Assembly: GCA_958295955.1 (NCBI GenBank)
Contig: OY282420.1
Location: 3,672,435 to 3,736,434 of the forward strand
Direction: 5' to 3'
Source: an uncultured Bryobacterales bacterium
GTDB lineage: Bacteria > Acidobacteriota > Terriglobia > Bryobacterales > UBA6623
Length of the DNA stretch: 64,000 nucleotides
Positions 954 to 49,735 of this stretch are shown piece after piece. The notes beneath the pieces were generated by a model. That model searched no databases, had not been told where the DNA came from, and saw only the letters and a program-made list of their open reading frames with translations. Each line of letters opens with the position of its first letter. The stretch's first letter is position 1. Both the position numbers and the translations under genes were made by a program.

Positions 954-976
954 CGCCGCCGGGCAAAACGCAGCCA

Positions 977-3712
977 ATGGAAACGACGGAAATGGATTTT
1001 GCCAAGGCTTTTGAGGCGCTGACCGGTAATGGTCCGCTACGTTGGCAAAAGCGGCTCTTTGAATGCCTGGACTCGGACAAGATACCGTCGGTGTGCGATC
1101 TCCCGACCGGCCTTGGCAAGACATCGGTCATTCCCATCTGGATGATCGCGCTTGCTCGGCAAGCGCGCGAGTCCCGGTCCCGTATCAACCTGCCGCGGCG
1201 TTTGATCTACATCGTCAATCGGCGAACCGTCGTGGATCAGTCGACGACCCTGGTCGAACGGATCCGAAAGAGACTGTTGAACCCGAGTGACGCGGCTTGG
1301 TCGAAGCACGAAGAAATGCTATGTTCGCTGGCCTCTGCCCTCGGATGCCTGTCACCGGACGACTCGCCACTGGCTGTAAGCACGCTTCGCGGCGAGTTGG
1401 CTGATAACGAGGAGTGGAGGAATGACCCTGCCCGCGCCGCTATTGTCATTGGAACCGTCGACATGATCGGCAGTAAGCTGCTTTTCAGCGGATACGGCGA
1501 TCGACTATACAAGCGCGCGCATCACGCGGGGCTCATCGGTCAGGACGTACTGATTGTCCATGACGAAGCGCACCTCACGCCCGCCTTCAGCGACCTTCTG
1601 CATAGCGTGGAAACCACGCAGAAAAAAGACCCGCAGAAAAAAGACTATGAGCCGAAGCCCGTCCGAGTGATGGAATTGTCCGCTACCCGACGTGACTCCA
1701 GCGGTAATGACGATGTTTTCCCTTGGAAAGAGGAAGATGAACAGGACGAATTTGTCAAAGATCGTCTTGACGCGAAGAAAAAACTACACCTGCACAAACT
1801 TGAGCCACAAAAAAGCGAAAAAAAGCTGCAAACTGAAAAACGATTTATCCAAAAAATTGTGGATTGCGCGTATCGGCACGAAGCCGACACCCAAAAAGTG
1901 CTGATCTATGTCCGCCAACCGGAGATTGCCCAAGAAGTGAACAAGGGGCTACGAAGAAAACTGGGCAACGAGGACGATGACCGAGTCGCGTTGCTCACGG
2001 GTACGATCCGCGGCTATGAGCGCGACCAATTGGTGACAAGCAACCAAGTCTATAAGGAATTGCTGAACGCCCAATCGCAACCAGCGAAGACGGTTTACTT
2101 GGTAAGCACATCGGCGGGCGAAGTCGGAATTGATATCGATGCAGACCACATGGTTTGTGACCTAATGACGTTGGACTCCATGATTCAGAGACTCGGCCGC
2201 GTCAACCGTCGCGGAGGGGCGGATCGCGATGCATGTATTGACGTGGTATACACTGAAAAGGATGAGAACCTTGGAGGCAATGCTTCGGATATTGACAAAG
2301 CAATCTCTGCAACACTCAATATCCTAAAAAGTTGGGAAAAAGATAATGCACCAGGATGCTCAATTGACGTAAGCCCTCGCAACCTTAAGGAAACCTTGAG
2401 CCAAGACAAGCGGAAAGAGGCTTTTTCCCCGATGCCTGAAACCCGTCCGCTGACCGATATCCTGCTCGACGCTTGGTCGCTGACCAGTGTTGACACGATG
2501 CCGGGTCGCCCGGCGGTTGCGACATATCTTCACGGGTTGACGCACGATCCCCCTGAAACGTACGTTGTTTGGCGTCAGGAAATTGCTTTTTTTAAGAAAT
2601 ATGATATTGACGAAAGATCGTTGCTGGGTCGGTGGTTCAACGTCTGCGGAATCCGTACAGAAGAGCAATTGCGTGATCGTACCTCCCGTATAAAAAACCG
2701 GCTTGGCGCTTTGCTGAAGAGGCATGCGAGAAATAAAATTGGTTGTGATTTTCCAGTTGTTCTGTTAGACGAACGTGGCGAGGCAAAGTTGTTGAATTTG
2801 TCAGAAGTGATCAAAAACGACTTTGATCTCCAGTACAAGACAATCGTTTTACCGGTAGAGGTAGGCGGTTTGGGGCAAGACGGGATAATCGACTCCACGA
2901 TAGTTGAACCGGTCCTCGACGTGGCGGAAGTTGCCACCGGAAAGATTCAACGAAAGCGGTGGCTGCACACCCAGACAGTTGACTCTTCGCTCTACCAGCG
3001 TCTTGGTTACGCAGAGACTCTGGAATCACTGCCTCAAGGACTGCAAGAACGAGAACGGATAATGTTAAAGGAACCCGTTGAGGGAGCCGAAGGCACGGAA
3101 GAAAGGATCGACTTACTTTTATGCATGCCGGAGAAGCAATCGCCGATCGGGGATCCGGAAACCGCTAAAGTACGGCAAACCCTAGCCGAGCATACGGAAG
3201 CGATCACGAAGCATATGGATAGCATCAGCGACCGCTTGGGTTTAGGGTCACCGATCAAGGCCGCGCTCGTTGCCGCCGCGAAAATGCACGACCGGGGTAA
3301 GGACCGCGTGGTTTGGCAACGATACGCCGACAACGATAACGGCGCAGAGGCATTAGCAAAATCAACCAAGTACCGGCACTGGCGGGTGCTTGGTGGCTAT
3401 CGACACGAGTTCGGCTCGTTGCTTGAAGCGATGGATAGTGAGTACTTGCGGAACTGTTCGGAACGGGATTTGATCCTGCACTTGATCGCGGCGCACCACG
3501 GCCATGCACGACCGCACTTCGCCCCCAAGGCTTTCGACCATGAGCGGTTCACCACACGAAGCAATGAAGATGCCACTGCAGGAACAATGCGGAGATTCGG
3601 TCAACTTCAACACCGTTTCGGGCGCTGGGGCTTGGCATGGCTGGAGTCGCTGCTGCGCTGTGCTGACATTGCTGCATCCAAAGCCACACAGAACCATTCC
3701 CCTGAAGATTGA
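977..3712 (+). CDS. cas3: Cas3 helicase-nuclease, type I-G (helicase then HD)
   Basis: A 911-residue protein if started at ATG 977 (a second in-frame ATG is at 992). The frame stays open upstream to 32, but that part overlaps the NYN gene. The superfamily 2 helicase core comes first: Walker A TGLGKT at about residues 44-49, DEAH at about 196-199, and SAT in ELSATRRD. The HD nuclease domain is C-terminal, with HD at about 771-772 in KMHDRGKDR and a later HLIAAHHGH. This helicase-then-HD order is the hallmark of type I-G/I-U Cas3; most other Cas3 proteins have HD first. Its role is to unwind and degrade DNA marked by Cascade. The gene is noticeably AT-richer than the NYN gene before it and the cas2/cas4-cas1 genes after it. 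csb3 starts 3 bp downstream. Confidence 0.95.
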   Translation: METTEMDFAKAFEALTGNGPLRWQKRLFECLDSDKIPSVCDLPTGLGKTSVIPIWMIALARQARESRSRINLPRRLIYIVNRRTVVDQSTTLVERIRKRLLNPSDAAWSKHEEMLCSLASALGCLSPDDSPLAVSTLRGELADNEEWRNDPARAAIVIGTVDMIGSKLLFSGYGDRLYKRAHHAGLIGQDVLIVHDEAHLTPAFSDLLHSVETTQKKDPQKKDYEPKPVRVMELSATRRDSSGNDDVFPWKEEDEQDEFVKDRLDAKKKLHLHKLEPQKSEKKLQTEKRFIQKIVDCAYRHEADTQKVLIYVRQPEIAQEVNKGLRRKLGNEDDDRVALLTGTIRGYERDQLVTSNQVYKELLNAQSQPAKTVYLVSTSAGEVGIDIDADHMVCDLMTLDSMIQRLGRVNRRGGADRDACIDVVYTEKDENLGGNASDIDKAISATLNILKSWEKDNAPGCSIDVSPRNLKETLSQDKRKEAFSPMPETRPLTDILLDAWSLTSVDTMPGRPAVATYLHGLTHDPPETYVVWRQEIAFFKKYDIDERSLLGRWFNVCGIRTEEQLRDRTSRIKNRLGALLKRHARNKIGCDFPVVLLDERGEAKLLNLSEVIKNDFDLQYKTIVLPVEVGGLGQDGIIDSTIVEPVLDVAEVATGKIQRKRWLHTQTVDSSLYQRLGYAETLESLPQGLQERERIMLKEPVEGAEGTEERIDLLLCMPEKQSPIGDPETAKVRQTLAEHTEAITKHMDSISDRLGLGSPIKAALVAAAKMHDRGKDRVVWQRYADNDNGAEALAKSTKYRHWRVLGGYRHEFGSLLEAMDSEYLRNCSERDLILHLIAAHHGHARPHFAPKAFDHERFTTRSNEDATAGTMRRFGQLQHRFGRWGLAWLESLLRCADIAASKATQNHSPED

Positions 3713-3715
3713 GCG

Positions 3716-4525
3716 ATGAAGCAACCCGAAGTAAGTTTCAGAGTTCCCGTGGATGTAACCAACCCCGGCCAGTTTTTTGCGTGCTGCGGCCTGTTGGAAT
3801 TGGCCCACCGTCTATGGCCCGGCGCGGAGGGATGGTTCGACGACAGCGATACTTCCTTTTTTGCGATTTCCGGCGGCAGTAATGCACGGCTAGAGTGCCT
3901 CAGCGATAAATTGCGCAGATGTGAGATTAGCGGACCACCTGGCGCCGAGGCCCGCAAAGGCAAAATCGGAATCGGGCAACCATTCGATCTGATTTTGAAT
4001 TGGTGGCAGACTAACGATGATGATCCAAAATCTCCCAAGACATGGGCCGGTCGCCAGGAAGTGCGCAGGATCGCACGAGCCGCGCAGAAGGCGCTGCCAG
4101 TGAAAAGTAACATTTTCAATTACGGTGCTGTGCTGCGTAAGCGAGTGGAATGCCACACGAATAACCGGCGGCAAGCCGACACCGTTGAGCCATTCTATTT
4201 TGACGCGAGGCGTTTCGCGCATGCCCTCGATACTGGCTTCTCGCTTGATACACAGAAGGCAGAGACAACCGCACACCCGTCAGTCGAGTTATTTTGCTTG
4301 ATCGGTTTGCAGCGCTTTCGGCCTGCGCCGTCGTCAATCAAGTGGAATTTTGAGTATCAGACTTGGCCTAAACCTCTATATGCTCCAATTGCATCTGGAG
4401 TGGCATCCTGTGCTGTACCCATGCCCGGCTCGAAACGTTATCGCTTTCCGCTCTGTTTTCGTGATAATCAAAAACGGTATAAATCTTTTGGATTCTCAAC
4501 TCAATTGGAGGTAATTTATGAGTAA
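3716..4525 (+). CDS. csb3: Csb3, type I-G Cascade subunit (Cas8-like)
   Basis: A 269-residue protein with the family signature near the N-terminus: NPGQFFACCGLLELAHRLWP followed by GAEGWF. Csb3 (GSU0052 family) sits between cas3 and csb1 in type I-G loci and is regarded as the large-subunit (Cas8g/Cas8u) counterpart, contacting target DNA and Cas3. It is much shorter than a normal Cas8. The start is only 3 bp after the cas3 stop, and the 3' end overlaps csb1 by 8 bp, so translation is probably coupled. Base composition is low in GC for this genome. The family call is firm; the Cas8-equivalent role comes from published work on the subtype, not from this sequence. Confidence 0.9.
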   Translation: MKQPEVSFRVPVDVTNPGQFFACCGLLELAHRLWPGAEGWFDDSDTSFFAISGGSNARLECLSDKLRRCEISGPPGAEARKGKIGIGQPFDLILNWWQTNDDDPKSPKTWAGRQEVRRIARAAQKALPVKSNIFNYGAVLRKRVECHTNNRRQADTVEPFYFDARRFAHALDTGFSLDTQKAETTAHPSVELFCLIGLQRFRPAPSSIKWNFEYQTWPKPLYAPIASGVASCAVPMPGSKRYRFPLCFRDNQKRYKSFGFSTQLEVIYE

Positions 4526-5777
4526 CGAAAAAGTCAATGTAGAGCAATTCGATCACTGGCTTAAGGATGAGAGCGAGGTCGCTGCCTTGGTTCTACATCA
4601 ATGGCTCAAGCCCGTTGAAGAGGTTGGGCTTGAAGGCAACGCGAAGGCAGTGATCTTCCCGCCGACGTATGCTAAGCCGGAAGGGACAGCAGGCGCGGAG
4701 TGGACCGGCTACAACATCGATCACTTCGGCGACAACTCAAATGTATGCCTGATCGATAGCGTTGGCTCACAGGCCAATCGAATGGAACCGACCTTTAAGC
4801 ACAAGGATTGCATATCCCTTGTTCCGCAGGTCTCCATTAAGGCCGGAAAACACAACATTGATCTTCTCGATGCCGGCCATCGCGCCGCTGACGCCATCGT
4901 GCGCTTTGCAGGCAACATGAAAAATGAAGTGAATGAAAAAGAAGCTACCGAAAACTCCGGCGATGCGCAAGATGCTCAAGAAGATGAAAAAAGCAGTAAC
5001 GGCAAACCTCTTGGCGAGCAGTTGTGGGACGCATTTAAGGCATACCAGAAGTGTGGAAATGCCGAGCCTTTGGCGAAAATTGCACCCACCTCCATTGTTT
5101 TCGGTGTCTGGGATTCCCGTGCCACACAAGTCAAGTTGCCTCGGATCGTGCGATCGGTAATCCGTGCGTACAACGTCAAGCGACACACTCGATCTGCTCA
5201 ATTCAACACACCGCTTCATTATGTAGATGAAGGTTTGATCGACGAGAAGCACGACAAAGGCGAGGGTGACAAAAACCCACTTAGCCAAGAGGGGTTCCGT
5301 CACAGTCCGGCTACAGGGAAACACGGCGGTATCGAAGTCATGGGCGATATCCGACGTGATGCCAGCATCAATCTTGTCGCGTTGCGTAATCTTAGCGTCA
5401 CGCCACTTGAGGAGGAAGATATCGCAAAAACTACCGAGCGTATGCTGTGTCTGCGTCGCTATATTCTCGGTCTCTCACTGGTCGCATTGACACGTCGCAG
5501 TGCTCAGCAGTTCAACCTTCGTGAGGGGTGTCTGCTCCGAATCTCTAAGTCTTCTGCCTGGAAGGCCGTGCCATTTGAAGGGGACGAGAAAGATATCTCT
5601 ATCGAGCCTGCGGATGCTATCGCATTTGCCAATGAGGTTGCGCGGATTTTCGGAGTGCAATCGTTCAACAAGCCTTTTCTGTTCGAAAACAAGAAGGCAG
5701 AAAGTTGGGTAGGTCGCACAAAAGAGGATCGAGACAAGCTCCGCCGCAAGGACGCCGTGATCAAACAGAAGCTGTGA
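4518..5777 (+). CDS. csb1: Csb1, Cas7-type backbone of type I-G Cascade
   Basis: A 419-residue protein with the strongly conserved Csb1/GSU0053 block NVCLIDSVGSQANRMEP at about residues 75-91, preceded by VIFPPTYAKPEG. Csb1 is the RAMP-fold Cas7 protein that polymerises along the crRNA spacer to form the effector backbone. A good Shine-Dalgarno sequence (GGAGGT, 4507-4512) lies 5 nt before the ATG, inside the end of csb3. The gene contains a charged low-complexity stretch around residues 135-165 (Glu/Asp/Lys-rich), which is probably a loop. GC content is as low as in csb3. Its stop codon overlaps a possible GTG start for csb2. Confidence 0.95.
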   Translation: MSNEKVNVEQFDHWLKDESEVAALVLHQWLKPVEEVGLEGNAKAVIFPPTYAKPEGTAGAEWTGYNIDHFGDNSNVCLIDSVGSQANRMEPTFKHKDCISLVPQVSIKAGKHNIDLLDAGHRAADAIVRFAGNMKNEVNEKEATENSGDAQDAQEDEKSSNGKPLGEQLWDAFKAYQKCGNAEPLAKIAPTSIVFGVWDSRATQVKLPRIVRSVIRAYNVKRHTRSAQFNTPLHYVDEGLIDEKHDKGEGDKNPLSQEGFRHSPATGKHGGIEVMGDIRRDASINLVALRNLSVTPLEEEDIAKTTERMLCLRRYILGLSLVALTRRSAQQFNLREGCLLRISKSSAWKAVPFEGDEKDISIEPADAIAFANEVARIFGVQSFNKPFLFENKKAESWVGRTKEDRDKLRRKDAVIKQKL

Positions 5778-5785
5778 GTGAGAAC

Positions 5786-7560
<1,775 letters not shown>

Positions 7561-7577
7561 CAGGAGGGTCGATTGCC

Positions 7578-9356
7578 ATGAGCGCCGAGCCGCTTCCCGA
7601 ACCCGCGCTTGCCCGCCGCGCGCTTCCCGACTACCTCCCCGCGCGCAAGATCAACGAGTTCGTCTATTGCCCGCGGCTGTTCTACTTCGAGCAGGTGGAG
7701 GACGTGTTCGTTCACAACGCGCACACGCTCGAAGGCGCCGCCCAACACAAGCGCGTGGACCAAGAAGGCCGCTCCGCGCCCAAGGCGGACGAAGAGACGC
7801 AAGAACCCGTCGTGGTGCGCTCGATCACGCTGTCGTCGGAGGAACACCGCGTCATCGCCAAGCTCGACCTGGCGGAGTTCGCCGACGGCCTCGCCACGCC
7901 GGTGGACTACAAGCACGGCCGTCCGATGAAGTGGGACGAGGGTTTGCAGGCTTGGCCTGAGGACCGCGTTCAATTGGCCGTCCAGGCGCTGGTGCTGCGC
8001 GCCAACGGCTACCGCTGCGAGGAGGGCGTCGTTTTCTACCAAAAGACGCGGCAGAGGGTGCGCATCCGCTTCGACGACGAAACGATGGCCGCGGCGGAGC
8101 AAGCCGTCGCCGGCGCCTGGGAGACCGCGGCGGCGACCGAGATTCCTCCGCCGCTCGTGGACTCGCCCAAATGCCCCGGCTGTTCGCTGGTCGGCATCTG
8201 CATGCCGGACGAAGTGGGGCAATTGCAGTCGCCCGCCCCCGTCCGCGCAGCGCAACAACTGGGGCTGTTCGAAGACGGGCGGAAAATCCCCAGGAAGCCG
8301 CCGGGGAAAGCAACCAGGCTGCTCGTTGCGCCGCGCGCCGATCTGAAGCCCCTCTACCTGAATACCCAGGGGCTGCGCGTGGGCAAGACCGGCGGCGTGC
8401 TGCGCATCAAGGAACGCGACAAGGTGGTTCAAGACGCGCGCATCCACGAGATCTGTCAGGTCAATCTGATGGGCAATATCCAGATCAGCACCCAGGCCGT
8501 GCAGGAGCTCTGCCGGGACGAGACGCCGATCTGTTACTTTTCGCAGGGCGGCTGGTTTTACGGCGTCACCACCGGACTGAATACGAAGAACGTCCTGCTG
8601 CGCAGGGCGCAGTTCCGGCTGGCGGAGGAGGAGTGGTTTTGCCGCCGCATCGCGCGCCGGCTGGTGACGGGCAAGATTCGCAATCAGCGCACGATGCTGA
8701 TGCGCAATCACATCGAGCCTCCCGACAAGGCGCTGCGCCGGCTCAAGTACCTGGCCGAACGCGCCGAGGCCGCGGATTCGCTGGACGAGTTGCTCGGCAT
8801 CGAAGGCTTGGCGGCGCGGATCTATTTCGGGTTGTTCGCCGGCATGTTGAAGCGCGGCGGGGAGTGGGACGGAGAAACGGCGGTGAGCTTCGATTTCCAG
8901 GCGCGGAACCGGCGGCCGCCGCGCGATCCGGTCAATGCGCTGCTCTCGCTGGGCTACAGCCTGCTGAGCAAAGACCTGACGGTGGCCTGTTACGCGGTGG
9001 GTTTCGATCCGATGATCGGTTTCTACCACCAGCCGCGCCACGGCCGTCCGGCTCTGGCGCTGGATTTGATGGAGACGCTGCGGCCGTTGATCGCCGACTC
9101 GGCGGTATTGAGCGCGATCAACACCCGCATGGTGTCGGAGCGCGATTTCGTGACGGCGGGACAGGCGGTGTCGTTGACGCCGGGCGGCAGGAAGAGCTTC
9201 TTCCGGGCGTACGAGGCGCGGATGGACACGCTGGTCACTCATCCGCTATTCGACTACCGCGTGAGTTACCGGCGTCTGCTTGAGATTCAGACGCGGCTGC
9301 TGGCGAAAACGCTTGAGGGCGAGTTGAACGAGTACCCGGTGTTTGTCACGCGATGA
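7578..9356 (+). CDS. cas4-cas1: Cas4-Cas1 fusion, spacer acquisition integrase
   Basis: A 592-residue fusion typical of type I-G. Residues about 15-215 are Cas4: Cys31 in FVYCPRLFYFEQ, RecB nuclease residues Asp110 and Lys112 in VDYKHG, and the C-terminal cysteines 199, 202 and 208 (KCPGCSLVGIC), which together can hold an iron-sulfur cluster. Residues from about 255 are Cas1, with the metal-binding region GFYHQPRHGRPALALDLME (His about 484). Cas4 trims prespacers and selects the PAM; in a studied type I-U/I-G fusion the PAM is TTN. A good RBS (AGGAGG, 7562-7567) precedes ATG 7578. The gene is intact and ends 183 bp before the first CRISPR repeat. Confidence 0.96.
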   Translation: MSAEPLPEPALARRALPDYLPARKINEFVYCPRLFYFEQVEDVFVHNAHTLEGAAQHKRVDQEGRSAPKADEETQEPVVVRSITLSSEEHRVIAKLDLAEFADGLATPVDYKHGRPMKWDEGLQAWPEDRVQLAVQALVLRANGYRCEEGVVFYQKTRQRVRIRFDDETMAAAEQAVAGAWETAAATEIPPPLVDSPKCPGCSLVGICMPDEVGQLQSPAPVRAAQQLGLFEDGRKIPRKPPGKATRLLVAPRADLKPLYLNTQGLRVGKTGGVLRIKERDKVVQDARIHEICQVNLMGNIQISTQAVQELCRDETPICYFSQGGWFYGVTTGLNTKNVLLRRAQFRLAEEEWFCRRIARRLVTGKIRNQRTMLMRNHIEPPDKALRRLKYLAERAEAADSLDELLGIEGLAARIYFGLFAGMLKRGGEWDGETAVSFDFQARNRRPPRDPVNALLSLGYSLLSKDLTVACYAVGFDPMIGFYHQPRHGRPALALDLMETLRPLIADSAVLSAINTRMVSERDFVTAGQAVSLTPGGRKSFFRAYEARMDTLVTHPLFDYRVSYRRLLEIQTRLLAKTLEGELNEYPVFVTR

Positions 9357-11960: not shown

Positions 11961-12068
11961 CGGTCTGTGACCGCGCTGGCAAAGGTCGGCCGCGTGACTT
12001 CCGGGGTCGAAAGACCCCGGCCCCATTGAAGCCGGTCTGTGACCGCGCTGGCAAAGGTCGGCCGCGTG
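11961..12068 (+). repeat. Duplicated spacer-repeat unit in the array
   Basis: The 36-nt spacer at 11961-11996 is repeated exactly at 12033-12068, separated by one repeat. This is a one-unit tandem duplication (72 bp), most likely from recombination or slippage between repeats. Confidence 0.95.
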
Positions 12069-15000
12069 ACTTCCGGGGTCGAAAGACCCCGGCCCCATTG
12101 AAGCGATTGAGCATCACGTCGGGCTGTTTCAGATGCCCGTCACTTCCGGGGTCGAAAGACCCCGGCCCCATTGAAGCCGCCCGGATTCGTTGGCCATGTC
12201 GGCCGCGGCCCCCAGAACTTCCGGGGTCGAAAGACCCCGGCCCCATTGAAGCTTTGCAAGTGTTCCTGAGAGCGTCTGCTATCTCGTTACTTCCGGGGTC
12301 GAAAGACCCCGGCCCCATTGAAGCCAGTTCTTTGATGCGCTTAGCCTGCTCGCTGATGATACTTCCGGGGTCGAAAGACCCCGGCCCCATTGAAGCCTGC
12401 TCTATTACTAATATACCAAATCGCAGATACCTTACTTCCGGGGTCGAAAGACCCCGGCCCCATTGAAGCCGCGGGGTGTTAAAGCGGCCCAAACATGCGC
12501 GCTGACTTCCGGGGTCGAAAGACCCCGGCCCCATTGAAGCGAGTATTCCGTGTCCACGGCAGGCAATCCGCAATACACTTCCGGGGTCGAAAGACCCCGG
12601 CCCCATTGAAGCCTCGGTCCGCCACCCGTTGCAGTTGGCAAAGCATTCACTTCCGGGGTCGAAAGACCCCGGCCCCATTGAAGCTTGATGTCATCTTTCG
12701 TGACTTCTACATCCATTTCATACTTCCGGGGTCGAAAGACCCCGGCCCCATTGAAGCGCTTTGCTGAACAACGGGTTCAGCGCGGACGACGGCACTTCCG
12801 GGGTCGAAAGACCCCGGCCCCATTGAAGCCTCGAACCCCGGAGACATGGTATTCGATCCTTTCTGACTTCCGGGGTCGAAAGACCCCGGCCCCATTGAAG
12901 CCCGCGTGCTGCGGCGGCCATCGCCCGGCTGCGGACGCACTTCCGGGGTCGAAAGACCCCGGCCCCATTGAAGCCTGGATTGCGGAACGTGAGAACTTGT
13001 GTATCAACTCACTTCCGGGGTCGAAAGACCCCGGCCCCATTGAAGCGGGTTGATGGGATTGTTAAAGATGCTGAAAGACTAACTTCCGGGGTCGAAAGAC
13101 CCCGGCCCCATTGAAGCAATTCCTGGTGGTCGAGGATGGCGGCCTTGACCTGCACTTCCGGGGTCGAAAGACCCCGGCCCCATTGAAGCGGCTACGTTGT
13201 GATCGGTCCCGGCGATGAGCTTCAGACTTCCGGGGTCGAAAGACCCCGGCCCCATTGAAGCCTGGTGAACCGAGAGGAAACCCTTGCGTCCACAGCCGCA
13301 CTTCCGGGGTCGAAAGACCCCGGCCCCATTGAAGCGACTGTTGCAAGCGCGGCGATACGCGTCCGCCAGCCACTTCCGGGGTCGAAAGACCCCGGCCCCA
13401 TTGAAGCCGTGGAAGAACTGAACGACGCGGAAATTGGCGCCGCAGACTTCCGGGGTCGAAAGACCCCGGCCCCATTGAAGCTCTAATGCTTCTTGTACTT
13501 CATCAGAATTAGCTAGAACTTCCGGGGTCGAAAGACCCCGGCCCCATTGAAGCGATTCCTACCGACTGGTGGCGAGAAGCGCACATCGCGTACTTCCGGG
13601 GTCGAAAGACCCCGGCCCCATTGAAGCGAGAAGATCAATGCGGCTGTCGAGCGGATCGGTCTGACTTCCGGGGTCGAAAGACCCCGGCCCCATTGAAGCG
13701 GAGGCCAAACGCGCTCGCCCGCGGGTGTTGTTCTACTTCCGGGGTCGAAAGACCCCGGCCCCATTGAAGCTGCCTGCGGCTGTCCTGCCGGCGCCTGCGG
13801 TGGACACTTCCGGGGTCGAAAGACCCCGGCCCCATTGAAGCTCGCCAATCTCGACTTTCGCCTCGAGCTCCTTCACCCACTTCCGGGGTCGAAAGACCCC
13901 GGCCCCATTGAAGCGCCGCGGAACATCGACGAGTTACGCGCGGGGCTGGAACTTCCGGGGTCGAAAGACCCCGGCCCCATTGAAGCAGGTTGCGGGTTGT
14001 CTCGACGCCGAACGGCAAGTCACTTCCGGGGTCGAAAGACCCCGGCCCCATTGAAGCGATGAGCGATCTTTTTCAAGATGGCGTACCGCTGGACACTTCC
14101 GGGGTCGAAAGACCCCGGCCCCATTGAAGCCGCCGCGTCGACCGCCCCATCATGCGGCTCACACTTACTTCCGGGGTCGAAAGACCCCGGCCCCATTGAA
14201 GCCCGCAAGAAATCGGGCGAGCGCTCGGTTAGCTCAGCCGACTTCCGGGGTCGAAAGACCCCGGCCCCATTGAAGCCGCTCGTGTTGAGCGGGGGGGGGG
14301 GCTTGGCGTTGCGCTACTTCCGGGGTCGAAAGACCCCGGCCCCATTGAAGCGGGCATGACGGCCGCCGCATCACTTCCCAGGTTTGCGAACTTCCGGGGT
14401 CGAAAGACCCCGGCCCCATTGAAGCGGCGGGGCTAGACGATGACGGCCATCGGGCGGCCGGCGACTTCCGGGGTCGAAAGACCCCGGCCCCATTGAAGCA
14501 CGGCTAATCATGGAGCAAAGTTTCTCTATATAAACACTTCCGGGGTCGAAAGACCCCGGCCCCATTGAAGCCGGGAGCGGCGCCGATCTCGACAGGAGTA
14601 TTACCGGGACTTCCGGGGTCGAAAGACCCCGGCCCCATTGAAGCCGATACCAGTCCGCACCAAACTCGGCGGACTCCACACTTCCGGGGTCGAAAGACCC
14701 CGGCCCCATTGAAGCATTAAGTATGCGGCCGCCGCTGTCCGCGCCAGGCCGACTTCCGGGGTCGAAAGACCCCGGCCCCATTGAAGCTATCGCGGCCCCT
14801 GTACCGGCTCGCTGCAGCGCGTGCACTTCCGGGGTCGAAAGACCCCGGCCCCATTGAAGCATGGTCAGCGCGACAGCCGCCGCGAAGCCCGATATCACTT
14901 CCGGGGTCGAAAGACCCCGGCCCCATTGAAGCGTACCTAATTGGTACAGATTGGACGACGAAACCTTGACTTCCGGGGTCGAAAGACCCCGGCCCCATTG

Positions 15001-18000
15001 AAGCCAGAGAAAGAAGAAAGCGCCCTACAGTCTGCACCATACTTCCGGGGTCGAAAGACCCCGGCCCCATTGAAGCTGATAGCCCGCGCCGTGTTGATCC
15101 GAGACATGCCGTACTTCCGGGGTCGAAAGACCCCGGCCCCATTGAAGCGGCCCGCGAGGCCGTTGCACTGGCGGACGGCGAGGGCACTTCCGGGGTCGAA
15201 AGACCCCGGCCCCATTGAAGCATGCGCCATATGTACCGCTTCAGCGTCGAATGTCGCACTTCCGGGGTCGAAAGACCCCGGCCCCATTGAAGCCGCCCGT
15301 CTCTGGATCGATCACCTTTGCCTGGCCCCACACTTCCGGGGTCGAAAGACCCCGGCCCCATTGAAGCGTTCCGGTCAAGCCCTGGCAGTGTCAGCGGGCA
15401 CTTACTTCCGGGGTCGAAAGACCCCGGCCCCATTGAAGCTTTGATCATTTTCGGCTATTCGGTTTCCTTTGCTTACTTCCGGGGTCGAAAGACCCCGGCC
15501 CCATTGAAGCGATGTCCAATTTGCCCTTGAGGCGCCGCGCCCATCTACTTCCGGGGTCGAAAGACCCCGGCCCCATTGAAGCGCGTCGGTAGCCTTCTTG
15601 CCTTCCGCACGAAGCAGTAACTTCCGGGGTCGAAAGACCCCGGCCCCATTGAAGCACTTGGCCCTACGATGCAACGTCATGTTATGCAATCACTTCCGGG
15701 GTCGAAAGACCCCGGCCCCATTGAAGCGAGCTGTTAATTCTGTTGACGGTACTATGTTACCCGACTTCCGGGGTCGAAAGACCCCGGCCCCATTGAAGCG
15801 ATTGAATAAAAAAAGCTTGAGATAATCTTATGGACACTTCCGGGGTCGAAAGACCCCGGCCCCATTGAAGCTGGAGACAAACCAGCCACCATGTTAAATC
15901 CCACTGACTTCCGGGGTCGAAAGACCCCGGCCCCATTGAAGCCACCTGGAAAGCGTGGAAGCTGATATCTTCCGCCGCACTTCCGGGGTCGAAAGACCCC
16001 GGCCCCATTGAAGCACTCTGTGGAGCGAACATGTGGACGGCATGGTTACGACTTCCGGGGTCGAAAGACCCCGGCCCCATTGAAGCTTTGCCTAATTGTG
16101 TAACCCCGCTCCATCACTCTAACACTTCCGGGGTCGAAAGACCCCGGCCCCATTGAAGCTCCTTGCCGCGCCGGGACTGGCCATGCCTTGCCCAACACTT
16201 CCGGGGTCGAAAGACCCCGGCCCCATTGAAGCCTTGCTCGCTCTACTTTTGCAGCATCCTTAGCAGGAACTTCCGGGGTCGAAAGACCCCGGCCCCATTG
16301 AAGCTTGCGGTTCGGTTGCTTGGGCGGCGCTACCCAATGCACTTCCGGGGTCGAAAGACCCCGGCCCCATTGAAGCCGATTGGCGCGATATGTGGGAGGA
16401 CGAGCATAGTTCACTTCCGGGGTCGAAAGACCCCGGCCCCATTGAAGCCGGCGCTTGGCTGCCGACGAGGGCGCCGAATCCGAACTTCCGGGGTCGAAAG
16501 ACCCCGGCCCCATTGAAGCAGTTGCGTTGGCGGACGTGTCGGTTTCCGAGTCGGGACTTCCGGGGTCGAAAGACCCCGGCCCCATTGAAGCCGGCGGGCA
16601 GTCGGCGATCGACCACTGCGTGCCGATCACTTCCGGGGTCGAAAGACCCCGGCCCCATTGAAGCGTTTTTTGGGGGGCTTTGGCGCGCCCCTGCTCTATA
16701 CTTCCGGGGTCGAAAGACCCCGGCCCCATTGAAGCGCTGCGTTGGCGACGCTCTGGAGGGCAAAACCGGCACTTCCGGGGTCGAAAGACCCCGGCCCCAT
16801 TGAAGCCGCCGGGTTCGCGGTTGTTCCCCGCCCGGACACGTTCACTTCCGGGGTCGAAAGACCCCGGCCCCATTGAAGCGACTCAGGTTTTGGGCTTCAG
16901 CGACCGCCTGCAGAAAACTTCCGGGGTCGAAAGACCCCGGCCCCATTGAAGCGTATCGACGTCGACCGTGGCGGTTTGCTTGGCGTCACTTCCGGGGTCG
17001 AAAGACCCCGGCCCCATTGAAGCCCATATACGCCGGCCCGCCGCCGTAGCGCTCCGGGTCACTTCCGGGGTCGAAAGACCCCGGCCCCATTGAAGCGTGT
17101 TGTCGACATACTCGTCGGCCACGCCAACGTATACTTCCGGGGTCGAAAGACCCCGGCCCCATTGAAGCGCGATAACGTCGGTTTTTCTAGGATTGATTAT
17201 AAAACTTCCGGGGTCGAAAGACCCCGGCCCCATTGAAGCGCCGTTTTCGCGGCGCTTCATATCGCGCTCCCAGCAACTTCCGGGGTCGAAAGACCCCGGC
17301 CCCATTGAAGCGATCAAAGATGGCGTGGTTGACCCCGCAAAAATGGACTTCCGGGGTCGAAAGACCCCGGCCCCATTGAAGCTGAGCGTTCCATTCGATA
17401 TCGCAGCCGGCGATTATGTCACTTCCGGGGTCGAAAGACCCCGGCCCCATTGAAGCAGTGCGACTGTCACAGGGGCGAATGTAACCGCGTGGTACTTCCG
17501 GGGTCGAAAGACCCCGGCCCCATTGAAGCGCGGGATCGCGATGGTAGGCGTAGGTCGTTGCCGCGACTTCCGGGGTCGAAAGACCCCGGCCCCATTGAAG
17601 CAGATGCTCTTTTTGACCTGGCGGGGGCGGCCGACTTGACTTCCGGGGTCGAAAGACCCCGGCCCCATTGAAGCTAGGCTTGGCCCCAACGGTTGGAGCA
17701 TCGGATTCTCACTTCCGGGGTCGAAAGACCCCGGCCCCATTGAAGCTTATAGTATAACCATCGGGGCAAGCCGTGGTATGGTACTTCCGGGGTCGAAAGA
17801 CCCCGGCCCCATTGAAGCAGTTCCACGACGGCGAACAGACGGCAGCCGATCCCTACACTTCCGGGGTCGAAAGACCCCGGCCCCATTGAAGCTTAAGATC
17901 TATCTATCTTAAGACTTAAGAATAATAAACTTCCGGGGTCGAAAGACCCCGGCCCCATTGAAGCCCAGTCGAGGACGTAACTACGAGCGTGCCGTTTCTC

Positions 18001-21000: not shown

Positions 21001-24000
21001 CCTTGATCGCGGCCCATTCGCTGGCGGCTTGCCCGACTTCCGGGGTCGAAAGACCCCGGCCCCATTGAAGCTACCGTGCGGTCGTTGAAGATTCGGAGCA
21101 TTACCGACTTCCGGGGTCGAAAGACCCCGGCCCCATTGAAGCGGGTGACTCGCTGACAATCACTTATCGCTGCGTGAACTTCCGGGGTCGAAAGACCCCG
21201 GCCCCATTGAAGCTAGCATATTCAATTAAGGCACATTGATAACAATGTCACTTCCGGGGTCGAAAGACCCCGGCCCCATTGAAGCGACGGCACGCCAAGC
21301 GCCGCGGCCTCAATCTCGTCGACTTCCGGGGTCGAAAGACCCCGGCCCCATTGAAGCCTTCCAAGTCGATTAGACGCTGCCGGGAAGTCTCCGCACTTCC
21401 GGGGTCGAAAGACCCCGGCCCCATTGAAGCACGCACGCTTCTAAAGGCGTGCTTATCAACAAGCTGACTTCCGGGGTCGAAAGACCCCGGCCCCATTGAA
21501 GCAGATTGGCGACGCGGACAATGTAGCCGTCGTCGCCACTTCCGGGGTCGAAAGACCCCGGCCCCATTGAAGCGATCCCAGACGAGCACGGGGTTACGGT
21601 CACGCAGATACTTCCGGGGTCGAAAGACCCCGGCCCCATTGAAGCCATGATTATCAATACCTAACCTTAACTCCCATTATCACTTCCGGGGTCGAAAGAC
21701 CCCGGCCCCATTGAAGCGGCTCGAGGCTGTACTCGCACCAGTCATCTGCTACACTTCCGGGGTCGAAAGACCCCGGCCCCATTGAAGCGGGGCCGGGGCC
21801 GTCGTCTTCCGCGTCGTCGTCATCACTTCCGGGGTCGAAAGACCCCGGCCCCATTGAAGCCACAGGGCATGCTGTGGCCTCGTGCGATCATCCATACTTC
21901 CGGGGTCGAAAGACCCCGGCCCCATTGAAGCTCAGCGTTCCGGTGGCGGCCGCTGTCGTTATATCTGGGGGACTTCCGGGGTCGAAAGACCCCGGCCCCA
22001 TTGAAGCGAGTCGCGCGTTTTCCATGATTTATCCTAGCTAACCACTTCCGGGGTCGAAAGACCCCGGCCCCATTGAAGCCCCGGAGGCAACGGCTGCCAG
22101 GCCGGGGTATCGCCGTACTTCCGGGGTCGAAAGACCCCGGCCCCATTGAAGCGGCGTCAAAGGCCGCGTGCTCAAGGGGCGCATCGTAACTTCCGGGGTC
22201 GAAAGACCCCGGCCCCATTGAAGCCCGCCCCGGTTTCGGCGAGCTAGTTGTCGTCGGCGAACTTCCGGGGTCGAAAGACCCCGGCCCCATTGAAGCTACA
22301 AGTTGACGATCGCCGGTGAGGTCATCCACGAAACTTCCGGGGTCGAAAGACCCCGGCCCCATTGAAGCCGGGAGGCTGGGTTTCAGTCCCGCGGCGATCG
22401 CATCACTTCCGGGGTCGAAAGACCCCGGCCCCATTGAAGCAAGCTGTCTTCGCGTTCCTGCATGGTCATGTCAGTCTACTTCCGGGGTCGAAAGACCCCG
22501 GCCCCATTGAAGCAGTGCCTGCGCAGTACTCCGCTTCGGACACCCACTTACTTCCGGGGTCGAAAGACCCCGGCCCCATTGAAGCGCGGAGATCGCGTTT
22601 CCCCCGCATTGGGTCTTGCCTACTTCCGGGGTCGAAAGACCCCGGCCCCATTGAAGCCAGAGCGATAACGTGAGCTTCCCGCCCGTGAGCGGATACTTCC
22701 GGGGTCGAAAGACCCCGGCCCCATTGAAGCTAGCGCCGCGCCCATTGGTCATTGCTGCCGTATCGACTTCCGGGGTCGAAAGACCCCGGCCCCATTGAAG
22801 CGGCTGCGGCGTAGTCCGGGTTCCAGGTTGGCATTTTTACTTCCGGGGTCGAAAGACCCCGGCCCCATTGAAGCGCTTCGTGCCGTTGACGTACAGGTTG
22901 TCCAGTGACGTAACTTCCGGGGTCGAAAGACCCCGGCCCCATTGAAGCAGGTCGTTGCGCTCCAACGCTACATTGTTCGGGGCGACTTCCGGGGTCGAAA
23001 GACCCCGGCCCCATTGAAGCTTTGGCCGGGCTGCCTGACGATAAGCGTCTTGCGTACTTCCGGGGTCGAAAGACCCCGGCCCCATTGAAGCACGTTTACT
23101 TGCGCAACAGCAATGCTCCGCTGGTGACTTCCGGGGTCGAAAGACCCCGGCCCCATTGAAGCAGCGACCCGGCGCTGCAAGCGCGGGTAGCGGCGGCCAC
23201 TTCCGGGGTCGAAAGACCCCGGCCCCATTGAAGCTTTTATTCGCATCTTTGACGCGGGTTTGCGCGTCGAACTTCCGGGGTCGAAAGACCCCGGCCCCAT
23301 TGAAGCCAGTCGATGGTTGGCGGCGGCATGGCGACAGACAAGACTTCCGGGGTCGAAAGACCCCGGCCCCATTGAAGCTCAGCATGGCAGCTAAAAAGGC
23401 ACGTCGTCATCGTCACTTCCGGGGTCGAAAGACCCCGGCCCCATTGAAGCAGTACCGCTGCGGCCAAGTCAGCCATCGCCAACGGTAACTTCCGGGGTCG
23501 AAAGACCCCGGCCCCATTGAAGCCCGCAACTCCCGGCGCGTCATAACCGAGCGCAACCGACTTCCGGGGTCGAAAGACCCCGGCCCCATTGAAGCCGACG
23601 CGTTAAGGCCGCTCTTCAAAATTTGATTTGACTTCCGGGGTCGAAAGACCCCGGCCCCATTGAAGCCGGACCGTTCCTATCGCTTCATCTCGCCGGAATT
23701 CACTTCCGGGGTCGAAAGACCCCGGCCCCATTGAAGCGCTACTTGAAGAATCCGCGTCGGGATGCGGACGGTCATACTTCCGGGGTCGAAAGACCCCGGC
23801 CCCATTGAAGCATCGCGTATCTCAAGGCGCCGCGCCGCGATGTGGACACTTCCGGGGTCGAAAGACCCCGGCCCCATTGAAGCGGCGCGGAGGCGCCGTT
23901 GCCGCGCCTGACGCTGCCGACTTCCGGGGTCGAAAGACCCCGGCCCCATTGAAGCTGTAGCTCGTGTTCCCCCCCCGCTCGTAGCTGTGTTCACTTCCGG

Positions 24001-27000
24001 GGTCGAAAGACCCCGGCCCCATTGAAGCCCTCGGTAACCTCTTCGCCGCGGTAAGTCACCGGAACTTCCGGGGTCGAAAGACCCCGGCCCCATTGAAGCG
24101 TTTCGTACTCGGCGATGTCGGGATCCATCCGGTGCACTTCCGGGGTCGAAAGACCCCGGCCCCATTGAAGCCGTTGGGCGCGGACACGGCGCAGATCCCC
24201 ATTTCGCACTTCCGGGGTCGAAAGACCCCGGCCCCATTGAAGCTGCGTTGAGCCGTGACCAGGCCGCTCTTCAAAATGTGACTTCCGGGGTCGAAAGACC
24301 CCGGCCCCATTGAAGCGACGGCCCAAAGCCCGCGATGTCGAAAAAATGGCGAACTTCCGGGGTCGAAAGACCCCGGCCCCATTGAAGCGCCCGCGCTCCG
24401 TCCGCTGGCCGTCTTGCCGGATCCACTTCCGGGGTCGAAAGACCCCGGCCCCATTGAAGCTCGAAAAAATTGGCCGCCGCCGAACGCCGCCTCCTCACTT
24501 CCGGGGTCGAAAGACCCCGGCCCCATTGAAGCGCGCGAGATGTCACGGATGGCCGGGCGTCAGTCGAACTTCCGGGGTCGAAAGACCCCGGCCCCATTGA
24601 AGCGGGTCCACGATGCCCCAGGCGGCGAGTAGGGCGTCCACTTCCGGGGTCGAAAGACCCCGGCCCCATTGAAGCCCGGCCTCGACGCCGCGCCAGGAGC
24701 CGGCCGGGTATACTTCCGGGGTCGAAAGACCCCGGCCCCATTGAAGCACTGCGGCCATCCTCGCGTTTATCGTCGCGGGGGAACTTCCGGGGTCGAAAGA
24801 CCCCGGCCCCATTGAAGCCAAGTTCACAAGGTATTGAAAGTTTAACTGACTTTACTTCCGGGGTCGAAAGACCCCGGCCCCATTGAAGCGGCACGCAGTA
24901 CGTCGCGGTTGCCGACGGCGCCGCCACTTCCGGGGTCGAAAGACCCCGGCCCCATTGAAGCTGAGGTTGCGCCGCCCTGATCGGTAAATGTACAAAAACT
25001 TCCGGGGTCGAAAGACCCCGGCCCCATTGAAGCGTGCTGGAAAACGTGGATCCGACCGACTTCTTCGTACTTCCGGGGTCGAAAGACCCCGGCCCCATTG
25101 AAGCATGTCCGTACGGCCATTGCGCGATAGGCTTGAGTTCACTTCCGGGGTCGAAAGACCCCGGCCCCATTGAAGCCGGCACTGGACCCCGTGGTGCTGG
25201 GCGGAACCCCACACTTCCGGGGTCGAAAGACCCCGGCCCCATTGAAGCGCCAATCGGCCTGCCGCGCTGTTGCGCAGGATGGACACTTCCGGGGTCGAAA
25301 GACCCCGGCCCCATTGAAGCCAGGCTGACCTGCAGCCGCTCCTGGAAAAAAAGGGCTACTTCCGGGGTCGAAAGACCCCGGCCCCATTGAAGCAGCTCAG
25401 CCTTGGCTTTTTCGTAACCGGAGAACGCTTACTTCCGGGGTCGAAAGACCCCGGCCCCATTGAAGCTTCGCGGCCTGCAGGTGGCGGGCCGTGATTTTGG
25501 GTTACTTCCGGGGTCGAAAGACCCCGGCCCCATTGAAGCCGCGCGACCCAATCGGCCCACGCCTGCAGGCGCCCGTCACTTCCGGGGTCGAAAGACCCCG
25601 GCCCCATTGAAGCTTTGCTCGTTCGTCTCGAACTCGGCGATGTCGGGGACTTCCGGGGTCGAAAGACCCCGGCCCCATTGAAGCGAGAACGCCGACCTGG
25701 GGCGCGGCCAGCCCGACGCCACTTCCGGGGTCGAAAGACCCCGGCCCCATTGAAGCCCGCCGATCATCCGGTCGGAAAAAAGAGCGTGAGCAAACTTCCG
25801 GGGTCGAAAGACCCCGGCCCCATTGAAGCGATCCGTACTCCGGTCGCATGACGCGGGAGCCTATCACTTCCGGGGTCGAAAGACCCCGGCCCCATTGAAG
25901 CGTTCGGGTTCGTTCGCTTAGCAGCATACTTCCGGGGTCGAAAGACCCCGGCCCCATTGAAGCGAGTTTTGCGGTTTGCGGCGTGTTATCCATGATAGCG
26001 ACTTCCGGGGTCGAAAGACCCCGGCCCCATTGAAGCGGTCGATATCGTGGCGGGCTGCACCGTCACTCTGTCACTTCCGGGGTCGAAAGACCCCGGCCCC
26101 ATTGAAGCGACGAAAGTGTAGCATGGGGGGGATGTTGACCGGCGACACTTCCGGGGTCGAAAGACCCCGGCCCCATTGAAGCTCCTTGCTTCTACGCCAG
26201 AAGCACCCAGGCGCCCACACTTCCGGGGTCGAAAGACCCCGGCCCCATTGAAGCCACCGGCCTCATAGCCGGCTTTGCCTCCCAAATCCCACTTCCGGGG
26301 TCGAAAGACCCCGGCCCCATTGAAGCGGCTGCGGTCAACTCTTTCACCGCGGCGGCGGCGCCACTTCCGGGGTCGAAAGACCCCGGCCCCATTGAAGCGA
26401 GATGAGCAAAACGGGGCAGGTCGAGATCGGCCGCACTTCCGGGGTCGAAAGACCCCGGCCCCATTGAAGCTTGTCTGCCGGCTGTAGTCCCAGGGGCCGG
26501 CAGGCAACTTCCGGGGTCGAAAGACCCCGGCCCCATTGAAGCTAATCAGACTTAAGGTTAGCAATCCGCTATCATGGAACTTCCGGGGTCGAAAGACCCC
26601 GGCCCCATTGAAGCCAGGCGCGTATTCCCTCGTCTAAAGCGCGGTGGAAAGCACTTCCGGGGTCGAAAGACCCCGGCCCCATTGAAGCCATCCGTTCGGC
26701 GGCGTGTGGGTCTTCCACCACGCAACTTCCGGGGTCGAAAGACCCCGGCCCCATTGAAGCCGGTTGTACAGAACCAGGGTTTTCACCTGCCGCAACCGAC
26801 TTCCGGGGTCGAAAGACCCCGGCCCCATTGAAGCCGGCCATTCTTCGCCGGTTACGACCGCCACCTTTTCACTTCCGGGGTCGAAAGACCCCGGCCCCAT
26901 TGAAGCAGGTACAGGCGGAAGGTTGAAGCATTCATTTCCATACTTCCGGGGTCGAAAGACCCCGGCCCCATTGAAGCATACGGCCGAGGAAGCATACGAC

Positions 27001-28712: not shown

Positions 28713-28960
28713 GGCGTTACCAGAACCTGACAATACAAGCACTAAAGACTTCCGGGGTCGAAAGACCCCGGCCCCATTGAAGCGCGCTCATCCGCCTGGC
28801 CTCGTTGATCGCAGACGGACTTCCGGGGTCGAAAGACCCCGGCCCCATTGAAGCGGCGTTACCAGAACCTGACAATACAAGCACTAAAGACTTCCGGGGT
28901 CGAAAGACCCCGGCCCCATTGAAGCGCGCTCATCCGCCTGGCCTCGTTGATCGCAGACGG
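28713..28960 (+). repeat. Duplicated two-spacer block in the array
   Basis: Spacers at 28713-28747 and 28784-28818 reappear, in the same order and with identical sequence, at 28855-28889 and 28926-28960. This is a two-unit tandem duplication of about 142 bp by unequal recombination between repeats, not independent acquisition. Confidence 0.95.
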
Positions 28961-43601: not shown

Positions 43602-43730
43602 GGGTCGGGGGGCGCGGGTCGCGCCGGCGGTCGCGCGCCGTTTCTTCAGTATAGGCCGCGCCGACTTATACTAAAGGCGCGGCGCCGGCTTGGGCAAGCG
43701 GATCGGCCGCGAGGAAAAACGACGAGCGTC

Positions 43731-44000
43731 ATGGTTGCCGAAGTTTACCGCGCGCTGGTGGAAGCGGGCGCGCCGGAGACAAGCGCGCGGGCTGCGGCCG
43801 CGGCGATTCCCGTGGCCGGGGATATGGTCGCGAAAGAGGATCTGTGGGCGCTCAAAGAAGAACTGCCGGCAAGGATCGCGCAAGTGGAGCATGGCTTGGG
43901 CGAACGGATGGGCCGGCTGGAGCGTGATATGGCGGTTCTCAAATTCGCTTACGGTCCGATAATTATTCTCCTGTTGCTGAAGATCGCCTTCCTTGCCTAG
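43731..44000 (+). CDS. Small coiled-coil membrane protein (cassette copy c)
   Basis: An 89-residue protein: N-terminal helix VAEVYRALVEAGAPETSARA, linker AGDMVAKEDLWALKEEL, a short coiled coil (RIAQVEHGLGERMGRLERDM) and a C-terminal membrane segment (FAYGPIIILLLLKIAFLA). The cassette also carries an upstream TATACT box and ends with a short inverted repeat after the stop (AGCCGCAAGCGGC). Compared with copies d and f the first ATG is mutated (ACGAGC), so translation must start at the next ATG, 43731. It has a single coiled-coil unit, whereas copy d has about three. Function unknown. Confidence 0.6.
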   Translation: MVAEVYRALVEAGAPETSARAAAAAIPVAGDMVAKEDLWALKEELPARIAQVEHGLGERMGRLERDMAVLKFAYGPIIILLLLKIAFLA

Positions 44001-44075
44001 AGCCGCAAGCGGCAAAGACCCGTGATTCATACCTTGCGGCCGGCGGCGTCAGCCGCCGCGCAGCACGCGCGGGCT

Positions 44076-44130
44076 TATACTAAAGGCGCGGCGCCGGCTG
44101 AGGCGAGCGGGTCGGCCTGGAGGAGAAACG
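44076..44130 (+). promoter_or_regulatory. Promoter and RBS of cassette copy d
   Basis: TATACT at 44076-44081 is a good -10 candidate, and GGAGGAG (44119-44125) is a strong RBS 5 nt before ATG 44131. The same TATACTAAAGGCGCGGCG block precedes copies c, e and f, so the promoter travels with the gene. Confidence 0.5.
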
Positions 44131-44550
44131 ATGAGCATCATGGTTGCCGAAGTTTACCGTGCGCTGGTGGAAGCGGGCGCGCCGGAGACAAGCGCGCGGG
44201 CTGCGGCCGCGGCGATTCCCGTGGCCGGGGACATGGTCGTGAAAGAGGATCTGTGGGCGCTCAAAGAAGAACTACTGACGAGGATCGCGCAAGTGGAGCA
44301 TGGCTTGGGCGAGCGGATCGAGCAACAAGGCGAACGGATCGCACAAGTGGAGCATGGCTTGGGCGAGCGGATCGAGCAACAAGGCGAACGGATCGCACAA
44401 GTGGAGCATGGCTTGGGCGAGCGGATCGAGCAACAAGGGCGGGAGATGGGCGAACGGATGGGCCGGCTGGAGCGTGATATGGCGGTTCTCAAATTCGCCT
44501 ACGGTCCGATAATCATTCTCCTGTTGCTGAAGATCGCCTTCCTCCCCTAG
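44131..44550 (+). CDS. Small coiled-coil membrane protein with 18-residue repeats (copy d)
   Basis: A 139-residue member of the cassette family. The ends match copy c, but the coiled coil is expanded by an 18-residue unit (QVEHGLGERIEQQGERIA) present nearly three times, encoded by a 54-bp repeat starting at 44290, 44344 and 44398. The C-terminal membrane helix (FAYGPIIILLLLKIAFLP) is unchanged. The gene lies 130 bp after copy c and ends just before the convergent purN gene. Coil length therefore varies between copies while both ends stay fixed. Function unknown. Confidence 0.65.
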   Translation: MSIMVAEVYRALVEAGAPETSARAAAAAIPVAGDMVVKEDLWALKEELLTRIAQVEHGLGERIEQQGERIAQVEHGLGERIEQQGERIAQVEHGLGERIEQQGREMGERMGRLERDMAVLKFAYGPIIILLLLKIAFLP

Positions 44551-44599
44551 AGCCGCGAGCGGCAAAGACCCGTGACTCATGCCTTGGCGGCCGGCGGCG

Positions 44600-48463: not shown

Positions 48464-48712
48464 CTACCGATCCGGCCCCAAGCGTTGCGTCATGGCCTCA
48501 AAAGAATCGTTCTCAACGGCAAGCTCTCGTTCGAGTCCCTTGACCCGCTCCTCACGCAGGCGAACAAGCTCGGTGCGGACAGCCGACACATGCCCAATCA
48601 AAGCGCCTTGCTCCTTCTCGAAGCCGTCCAGCCGTTTGTCCAAGCCGTCCAGCCGCCTGTCGATACCCTCCAGCCGAGACAATACAATTTGTTGAAATTC
48701 CCGGTCATTCAC
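48464..48712 (-). CDS. Small coiled-coil protein
   Basis: An 82-residue soluble coiled coil with seven-residue repeats: LEGIDRRLDGLDKRLDGFEK, then VRTELVRLREERVKGLEREL. No membrane helix or signal peptide. It differs from the cassette family (copies a-f) in lacking the C-terminal membrane segment, though similar in style. The start has GGAGAT upstream on the minus strand. Function unknown. Confidence 0.55.
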   Translation of the reverse strand: MNDREFQQIVLSRLEGIDRRLDGLDKRLDGFEKEQGALIGHVSAVRTELVRLREERVKGLERELAVENDSFEAMTQRLGPDR

Positions 48713-49050
48713 TACGATCTCCTACCTGTATGGCTTCGCCGCCGGTTTGAACCCGGCCGCCAACTCTGATTGCTACGATGGTCGCTCAGGCAGCAGCCGC
48801 CTGTCAACGGTTTTTTGTACTGAAGCCGCTTCCCGTCAAGGCGCTTGGCCGGCTTGTCGGCTATTTCCCCTTTGTTATGCGCCGCCGCGATCCGCCGGCG
48901 CGCCCCCTGCCCCAACCCCGCAAAAAATCCTTGAACGCAAATTAAACGCCGTTAAAGGGGTCTATGGGGCGCCCTGCGCAGCCCGCCGGAAAGCGGGGAG
49001 CGGAAAGCGAAGAGCAAGACGGCCGCGGCGCGGAGCATTCCCGATTTTTC
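48713..49050. other. Intergenic stretch without recognisable gene
   Basis: I see no gene supported by homology here. The right part (48964-49030) contains a GCGGGGAGCGGAAAGCGAAGAG micro-repeat-like patch. This is the area where one end of the prophage might lie, but I could not identify Mu-type terminal sequences. Confidence 0.4.
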
Positions 49051-49230
49051 AGGCGCCGGCGGCGGCCTCGACCAGCGTGGCGTAGCCCGCCGCATCGACC
49101 CGCTGCAGGGCGCCGGCGGCGACCCAAGCGCCGCCCAGTCCCTCGCGGAAGCCGGCGAAGCGCAGCTTCGCGCCGGCCCGTCGGCCCCGCCCTCGGCCTC
49201 GACGGTTTGCGCGGCCCCCGCCGCCTTTTT
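49051..49230 (-). pseudogene. Remnant of a second phage gpD (tail protein D) 3' end
   Basis: The minus strand encodes AGAKLRFAGFREGLGGAWV followed by AAGALQRVDAAGYATLVEAA, almost the same as the C-terminus of the intact gpD at 50264-51235. Just upstream the frame changes, and sequence corresponding to AAQTVEAEGGADGP (an earlier part of gpD) is joined with the middle missing. It is a deleted duplicate, separated from the intact gene by cassettes e, f and g. Confidence 0.8.
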
Positions 49231-49305
49231 CGCCGGCGCGTGCTGCGCGGCGGCTGACGCCGCCGGCCGCAAGGCATGAGTCACGGGTCTTTGCCGCTCG
49301 CGGCT

Positions 49306-49596: not shown

Positions 49597-49735
49597 GATG
49601 CCCGTCGTTTTTCTTCCAGGCCGACCCGCTCGCCCAAGCCGGCGCCGCGCCTTTAGTATAAGCCCGCGCGTGCTGCGCGGGGGCTGACGCCGCCGGCCGT
49701 GAGGCATGAGTCACGGGTCTTTGCCGCTCGCGGCT

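Follow-up and report, generated by a model that had tools for sequence, protein, structure and literature searches.

Type I-G CRISPR-Cas Locus

The window analyzed here is a 64,000-nucleotide stretch from the genome of an uncultured Bryobacterales bacterium (contig OY282420.1, positions 3,672,435 to 3,736,434). Its first half is taken up by a type I-G cas operon, complete as judged by profile matches, and a CRISPR array.

32-9356 (+), type I-G cas operon: cas3g, cas8g2, csb1/cas7g, csb2, cas2 and cas4g-cas1g
32-3712 (+), cas3g; NCBIfam Cas3g, above cut-off
3716-4525 (+), cas8g2; NCBIfam Cas8g2, above cut-off
4518-5777 (+), csb1/cas7g; NCBIfam Csb1, above cut-off
5705-7264 (+), csb2 (cas5-6); NCBIfam Csb2, above cut-off
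about 7282-7476 (+), cas2, in the ORF 7162-7560; PF09827 at C1:3679716-3679910, PADLOC Cas2g
7206-9356 (+), cas4g-cas1g fusion, true start probably about 7580; NF049935, 742 bits
9540-30087 (+), type I-G CRISPR array of 285 identical 36-nt repeats and 284 spacers; Rfam CRISPR-DR16

The original prediction had assigned the system to type I-U/I-G, and the curated NCBIfam cut-offs passed by all of the effector genes (Cas3g, Cas8g2, Csb1, Csb2) bear this out, as do the presence of both the Cas4-Cas1 fusion and Cas2 and a 5′ TTN PAM, seen as a TTC consensus over the 19 protospacers described below. The spacers are 26-40 nt long, mostly 36. With the leader and cas genes at the low-coordinate end, the low-numbered spacers would be the youngest under the standard polarity of arrays. 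We note that the array is exceptionally long, that all 285 repeats including the last are alike with no decay at the trailer end, and that blocks have been duplicated within it: spacers 266-267 recur as 268-269 (28713-28960), and spacer 34 recurs as 35 (11961-12068).

Resident Mu-like Prophage

The structural genes of a Mu-like prophage remnant occupy the far end of the window and continue into the adjoining sequence (L003).

48700-64000 (−), extending to about 72000 in window coordinates (L003:1-8000), structural genes of a Mu-like prophage remnant; edges approximate
50264-51235 (−), gpD-type baseplate hub gene; PF05954 Phage_GPD, 1e-12; PHROG_52 tail, 1.4e-99

Within the window lie genes for gpD, the tape measure, the sheath, the wedge, the spike and gpT, and past its end in L003 are those for the Mu protease, the Mu portal, the terminase and an M15 endolysin. 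The element is classed as Mu-like from gpT, the gpI protease, the gp29 portal and the terminase, together with a contractile tail of the P2/Mu type. Among the larger ORFs scanned from about 48 to 78 kb, no MuA/MuB, repressor, integrase or gpF head gene was seen, and we tentatively regard the prophage as a remnant that is apparently defective. In the gene order of Mu, the F head gene sits between the protease and the portal; here a low-GC segment of 1.9 kb separates these two genes.

This low-GC island (45-55%; L003:1800-3750, window 65800-67750) lies in the head-gene block and holds short plus-strand ORFs, which in a profile search gave no known family and only a weak HTH match; one of them resembles, by eye, a fragment of an IS1595 transposase. 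In Mu-like phages of Pseudomonas, acr genes occupy a comparable location. We considered the island as an anti-CRISPR site and make no such claim, as no family match supports it. Several repeats were also observed around gpD. Just downstream of the gene there is a second, truncated copy of its 3′ end (about 49063-49225), along with three direct repeats of 430 bp (within 49063-50235), and a further fragment of the gpD end is found at C1:1595089. One sequence occurs at 43783 and 44192 on the minus strand and again at 49509 on the plus strand (within 43657-44586 and 49232-50235); these inverted repeats bracket about 5 kb with host metabolic genes, a possible invertible segment.

Spacer 206 and Its Near-Match in gpD

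The feature that drew attention to this locus is a single spacer with a near-copy in the prophage.

24389-24424 (+), spacer 206 of the 284-spacer type I-G array
50666-50701 (+), resident near-protospacer in gpD; mismatches at positions 4, 19, 27 and 34
50663-50665 (+), TTC PAM, immediately 5′ of the near-protospacer

The segment had been predicted to be a CRISPR spacer with about four mismatches to gpD, and the alignment, with positions counted from the PAM side, gives 32 of 36 nucleotides identical and exactly four mismatches. The minus-strand translation is GSGKTASGRSAG for the spacer and GSGQTASGRSAG for the prophage, so that three of the changed codons are synonymous and the fourth is the single K-to-Q change that had been foreseen. 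The assignment of the target to gpD holds on the PF05954 and PHROG_52 matches, and the TTC at the resident copy agrees, as proposed, with a TTN PAM. The original prediction had named an exact match to an unrelated phage, or a different PAM, as findings that would speak against it; no such match was found in IMG/VR or in the phage or plasmid collections, and the flanks of the 19 protospacers give TTC. The match to gpD is not due to chance. When the spacers were shuffled with dinucleotide composition preserved (1,136 trials) and compared with the rest of the window, the best match had eight mismatches, and reversed spacers likewise gave eight at best.

The prediction had left the effect of the mismatches to their position relative to the seed and to every sixth base, and we mapped them accordingly. 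Type I-G pairs in a 5+1 pattern (PMC9638904), and the canonical seed was taken as positions 1-5 and 7-8 (PMC5904413). One of the four mismatches of spacer 206 falls in the seed, at position 4, and none falls at a flipped-out sixth position; spacer 206 is therefore not the strongest self-target candidate. Exact self-targeting does not describe it, given four mismatches to its genomic match, and as a self-target it is weak on account of the seed mismatch, because of which its crRNA would at most bind the resident copy weakly or prime adaptation. If type I-E is a guide, mismatches in the seed may be expected to lower binding and interference while sometimes leaving primed adaptation in place.

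At Least 19 Spacers Match the Prophage

Spacer 206 has many companions: at least 19 spacers of the I-G array match the same 23.8-kb prophage at 4-9 mismatches, a count that comprises spacers with ≤8 mismatches and those nine-mismatch matches that fit a gene frame. When all 284 spacers were compared with the window plus the 40 kb that follow it, 14 had ≤8 mismatches within the 23.8 kb of the prophage, as against 3 in about 237 kb sampled elsewhere in this genome. The targeted genes encode the hub, head-closure, sheath, tail, wedge, gpT (major head), protease, portal, terminase and M15 endolysin proteins. Examples follow.

23524-23559 (+), spacer 194; gpD, 51025-51060 (+), 6/36 mismatches, TGT flank
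22297-22332 (+), spacer 177; head-closure gene, 55872-55907 (−), 6/36 mismatches
15149-15185 (+), spacer 78; tail sheath gene, 57411-57447 (−), 6/37 mismatches, TTC, no mismatch in the seed
26037-26072 (+), spacer 229; baseplate wedge gene, 59468-59503, 5/36 mismatches, GTA flank, 12/12 residues kept
15222-15257 (+), spacer 79; gpT, 63358-63393 (−), 7/36 mismatches, TTC
23884-23919 (+), spacer 199; portal gene, L003:3988-4023 (−), 6/36 mismatches, TTC, clean seed
13915-14021 (+), adjacent spacers 61 and 62; both terminase gene, L003:5944-5979 and L003:6076-6110

The near-match of spacer 206 with its PAM stands, while gpD has no special place among the targets. Two of the six mismatches of spacer 199 fall at flipped-out positions, which leaves only four that affect pairing; with its TTC and its clean seed, this portal spacer would be the best functional candidate of the I-G array, ahead of spacer 206.

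The flanks of the 19 protospacers, which lie in a GC-rich region, carry T at −3 in 12, T at −2 in 12 and C at −1 in 13. TT occupies −3/−2 at 8 of the sites, compared with a background of 3% (p 5e-8), and the full TTC is intact at 6. The PAM of this organism, TTC, is read directly from these flanks. A TTN PAM has been described for type I-G (PMC9638904) and a GAA/TTC PAM is used in vitro by type I-G Cas4/1 (PMC10504553), whereas the Bifidobacterium I-G PAM is TAT, so that TTN is not subtype-wide (PMC12915315). From the mean divergence, 65% of sites would be expected to keep TT; the deficit at 8/19 is borderline (p 0.05) and we build nothing on it.

Two further CRISPR systems of this genome also match the prophage.

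C1:557746-560078, type II array, with Cas9, Cas1 and Cas2
51856-51885 (+), near-protospacer of type II spacer 20 in the prophage, 2/30 mismatches
C1:1062237-1063933, type I-C array of 23 spacers
50970-51004 (+), weaker near-match of type I-C spacer 2 in gpD, 7/35 mismatches

The original prediction that spacer 206 marks the closest potential self-target in the window is consequently true for the I-G array and fails once the other arrays are counted, since type II spacer 20 comes closer. Genome-wide, spacer 206 is also surpassed by I-G spacer 195 (3/35 mismatches at C1:1187251).

Origin of the Spacers

The mismatches are distributed as in coding sequence. Over the 19 protospacers, read in the gene-model frames, first, second and third codon positions mismatch at 14.5, 8.7 and 34.8%. 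Of the changed codons, 66 are synonymous and 39 nonsynonymous, and in 18 of the 19 protospacers the best conserved frame is that of the gene model. This pattern is a signature, in the sequences compared, of homologous genes that diverged under purifying selection. The prophage differs from its matching spacers by 11-25%. It is unlikely to have diverged so far since the spacers were acquired, because all 285 repeats are identical, a clock that is only rough, since each new repeat is made by copying an existing one. The matching spacers span numbers 8 to 283, which points to repeated encounters.

We consider it very probable that spacer 206 and at least 18 others were acquired beside TTC from phages related to the resident Mu-like prophage and that the resident copy is a diverged one. 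In the proposed sequence of events, relatives of the prophage would have infected the lineage repeatedly and type I-G spacers would have been acquired next to a TTC PAM, from phages about 80% identical to the prophage over the matched stretches. The prophage would carry homologous, diverged sequence, such that each crRNA would pair with it imperfectly; with 4-9 mismatches, often joined by a seed mismatch or a lost PAM, the resident copy would be tolerated by the I-G system, and the array itself would be active against related phages. Searches of IMG/VR (with a degenerate pattern covering both alleles), phage records and plasmids gave no exact source of spacer 206. The gpD protein as query found no relative in IMG/VR and one MAG locus at 44%, and the portal and terminase queries found 160 IMG/VR loci. 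None of the spacers matched 186 loci (2.58 Mb) with fewer than 6 mismatches; the nearest sampled phages match the spacers no better than the resident prophage does. In relatives of the same order, the portal and terminase genes are only 67-75% identical. Across IMG/VR, the phage and plasmid collections and the prophages of relatives, no exact or near-exact source phage was found, and for this reason the step from a phage relative to the spacer is one that we infer.

Other readings of the near-matches were weighed against this one. Fortuitous resemblance between GC-rich spacers and a GC-rich gene is conceivable in a genome of this composition (about 70% GC in the prophage, 61% in the spacers), yet the shuffled and reversed controls, which never reached seven mismatches, already refute it, and the clustering of matches in one prophage, the agreement with gene frames and the PAM leave it a negligible probability. 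It is very unlikely that the prophage itself, or an ancestor of it in the lineage, supplied the spacers and that the protospacers and PAMs later mutated to escape. The somewhat low retention of the PAM TT fits that course of events; against it, the changes are spread across the protospacers and lie mostly at synonymous third positions, seed mismatches were tested for enrichment and none was found (22% in the seed, 19% elsewhere, p 0.46), one or two changes would suffice for escape, and the array repeats show no divergence.

More weight, though still well short of an even chance, goes to active autoimmunity from near misses, in which spacer 206 or its companions would recruit Cas3 and cause sublethal damage, induction or priming. 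The six sites with intact TTC are in keeping with this, as are spacers 78 and 199, which combine TTC with no mismatch at positions 1-5 and 7-8, and the four mismatches of spacer 199 outside the flipped-out positions. A five-mismatch spacer of P. aeruginosa PA14 confers no immunity and yet damages the chromosome of the lysogen (PMC11406979), and in type I-E, seed-mismatched targets prime adaptation without detectable interference (PMC5904413). On the other side, the lineage persists with both the prophage and a complete cas operon, and no exact prophage-derived spacer is present among the matches listed, although active priming should yield some; the structural paper on type I-G uses neither "mismatch" nor "seed" (PMC9638904). 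A broader form, in which dozens of imperfect crRNAs, mainly I-G with a single I-C and a type II one, hold the prophage under graded sublethal targeting, we regard as improbable; if true, the prophage would be a standing target for priming or silencing and not an ignored one. Taken as acquisitions from relatives of the prophage, the I-G spacers are most likely antiviral memory of the ordinary kind, perhaps with weak self-recognition, and do not amount to a confirmed self-attack; what sets the locus apart is how large its array is and how many near-matches it holds.

Relation to Known Systems

The arrays of E. coli are of type I-E. The locus resembles those with a preference for prophages as targets (PMC10910852) in that spacers are mostly directed against prophage-forming phages and exact spacer-prophage pairs are rare per genome; it differs in subtype and in that imperfect matches to one resident element are here counted systematically. 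The closest likeness is to P. aeruginosa PA14, in which a type I-F spacer matches the Mu-like prophage DMS3 with five mismatches, gives no immunity and leads to genetic conflict in lysogens (PMC11406979). An imperfect type I spacer match with a PAM to a resident Mu-like prophage is likewise found here, whereas the DMS3 case concerns a single spacer, a prophage that is complete and inducible, and a phenotype that was measured, and ours a I-G system, at least 19 spacers and an apparently defective prophage, known from sequence alone. The type I-G (formerly I-U) systems of Geobacter sulfurreducens and Thioalkalivibrio sulfidiphilus (PMC9638904, PMC10504553) share Cas3g, Cas8g, Csb1, Csb2, the Cas4-Cas1 fusion and the TTN/TTC PAM, and the only structural difference seen here is the very long array. 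The locus provides a naturally occurring set of about 19 spacer-target pairs for a single type I-G system; their mismatches are graded, the state of seed and PAM is known, and the target is resident. Mismatch tolerance and priming in type I-G could be measured on this set. The array would also record that relatives of one Mu-like phage have infected the lineage over a long time.

Other Self-Matches in the Genome

Genome-wide searches were made by BLAST with joined spacers, and in part of them 40 of the first-look candidates were scored; for type I-C they covered 17 of the 23 spacers. BLAST overlooks many matches with ≥6 mismatches, spacer 8 being one that it missed, and within this scope no exact copy of any of the 284 I-G spacers outside the array was among the matches listed. 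In the type II system, at least 23 nt matching the repeat lie just upstream of cas9 (L041:4743, about C1:564742) and form a candidate tracrRNA anti-repeat. Type II spacer 11 (C1:558439-558466, L040/L041) is an exact 28-nt match to a host gene with a B12-binding domain (PF02310; L042:9703-9730, C1:3185702-3185729), a self-target by sequence. A host locus of tandem DUF29-type genes (L033:9252-9293, C1:1187251-1187292) is matched by spacer 195 (23596-23630; 3/35 mismatches, TTG flank) and by spacer 204 (24244-24280; 5/37 mismatches, TTT flank), and the 26-nt spacer 227 (25902-25927) fits the same locus with 6 mismatches.
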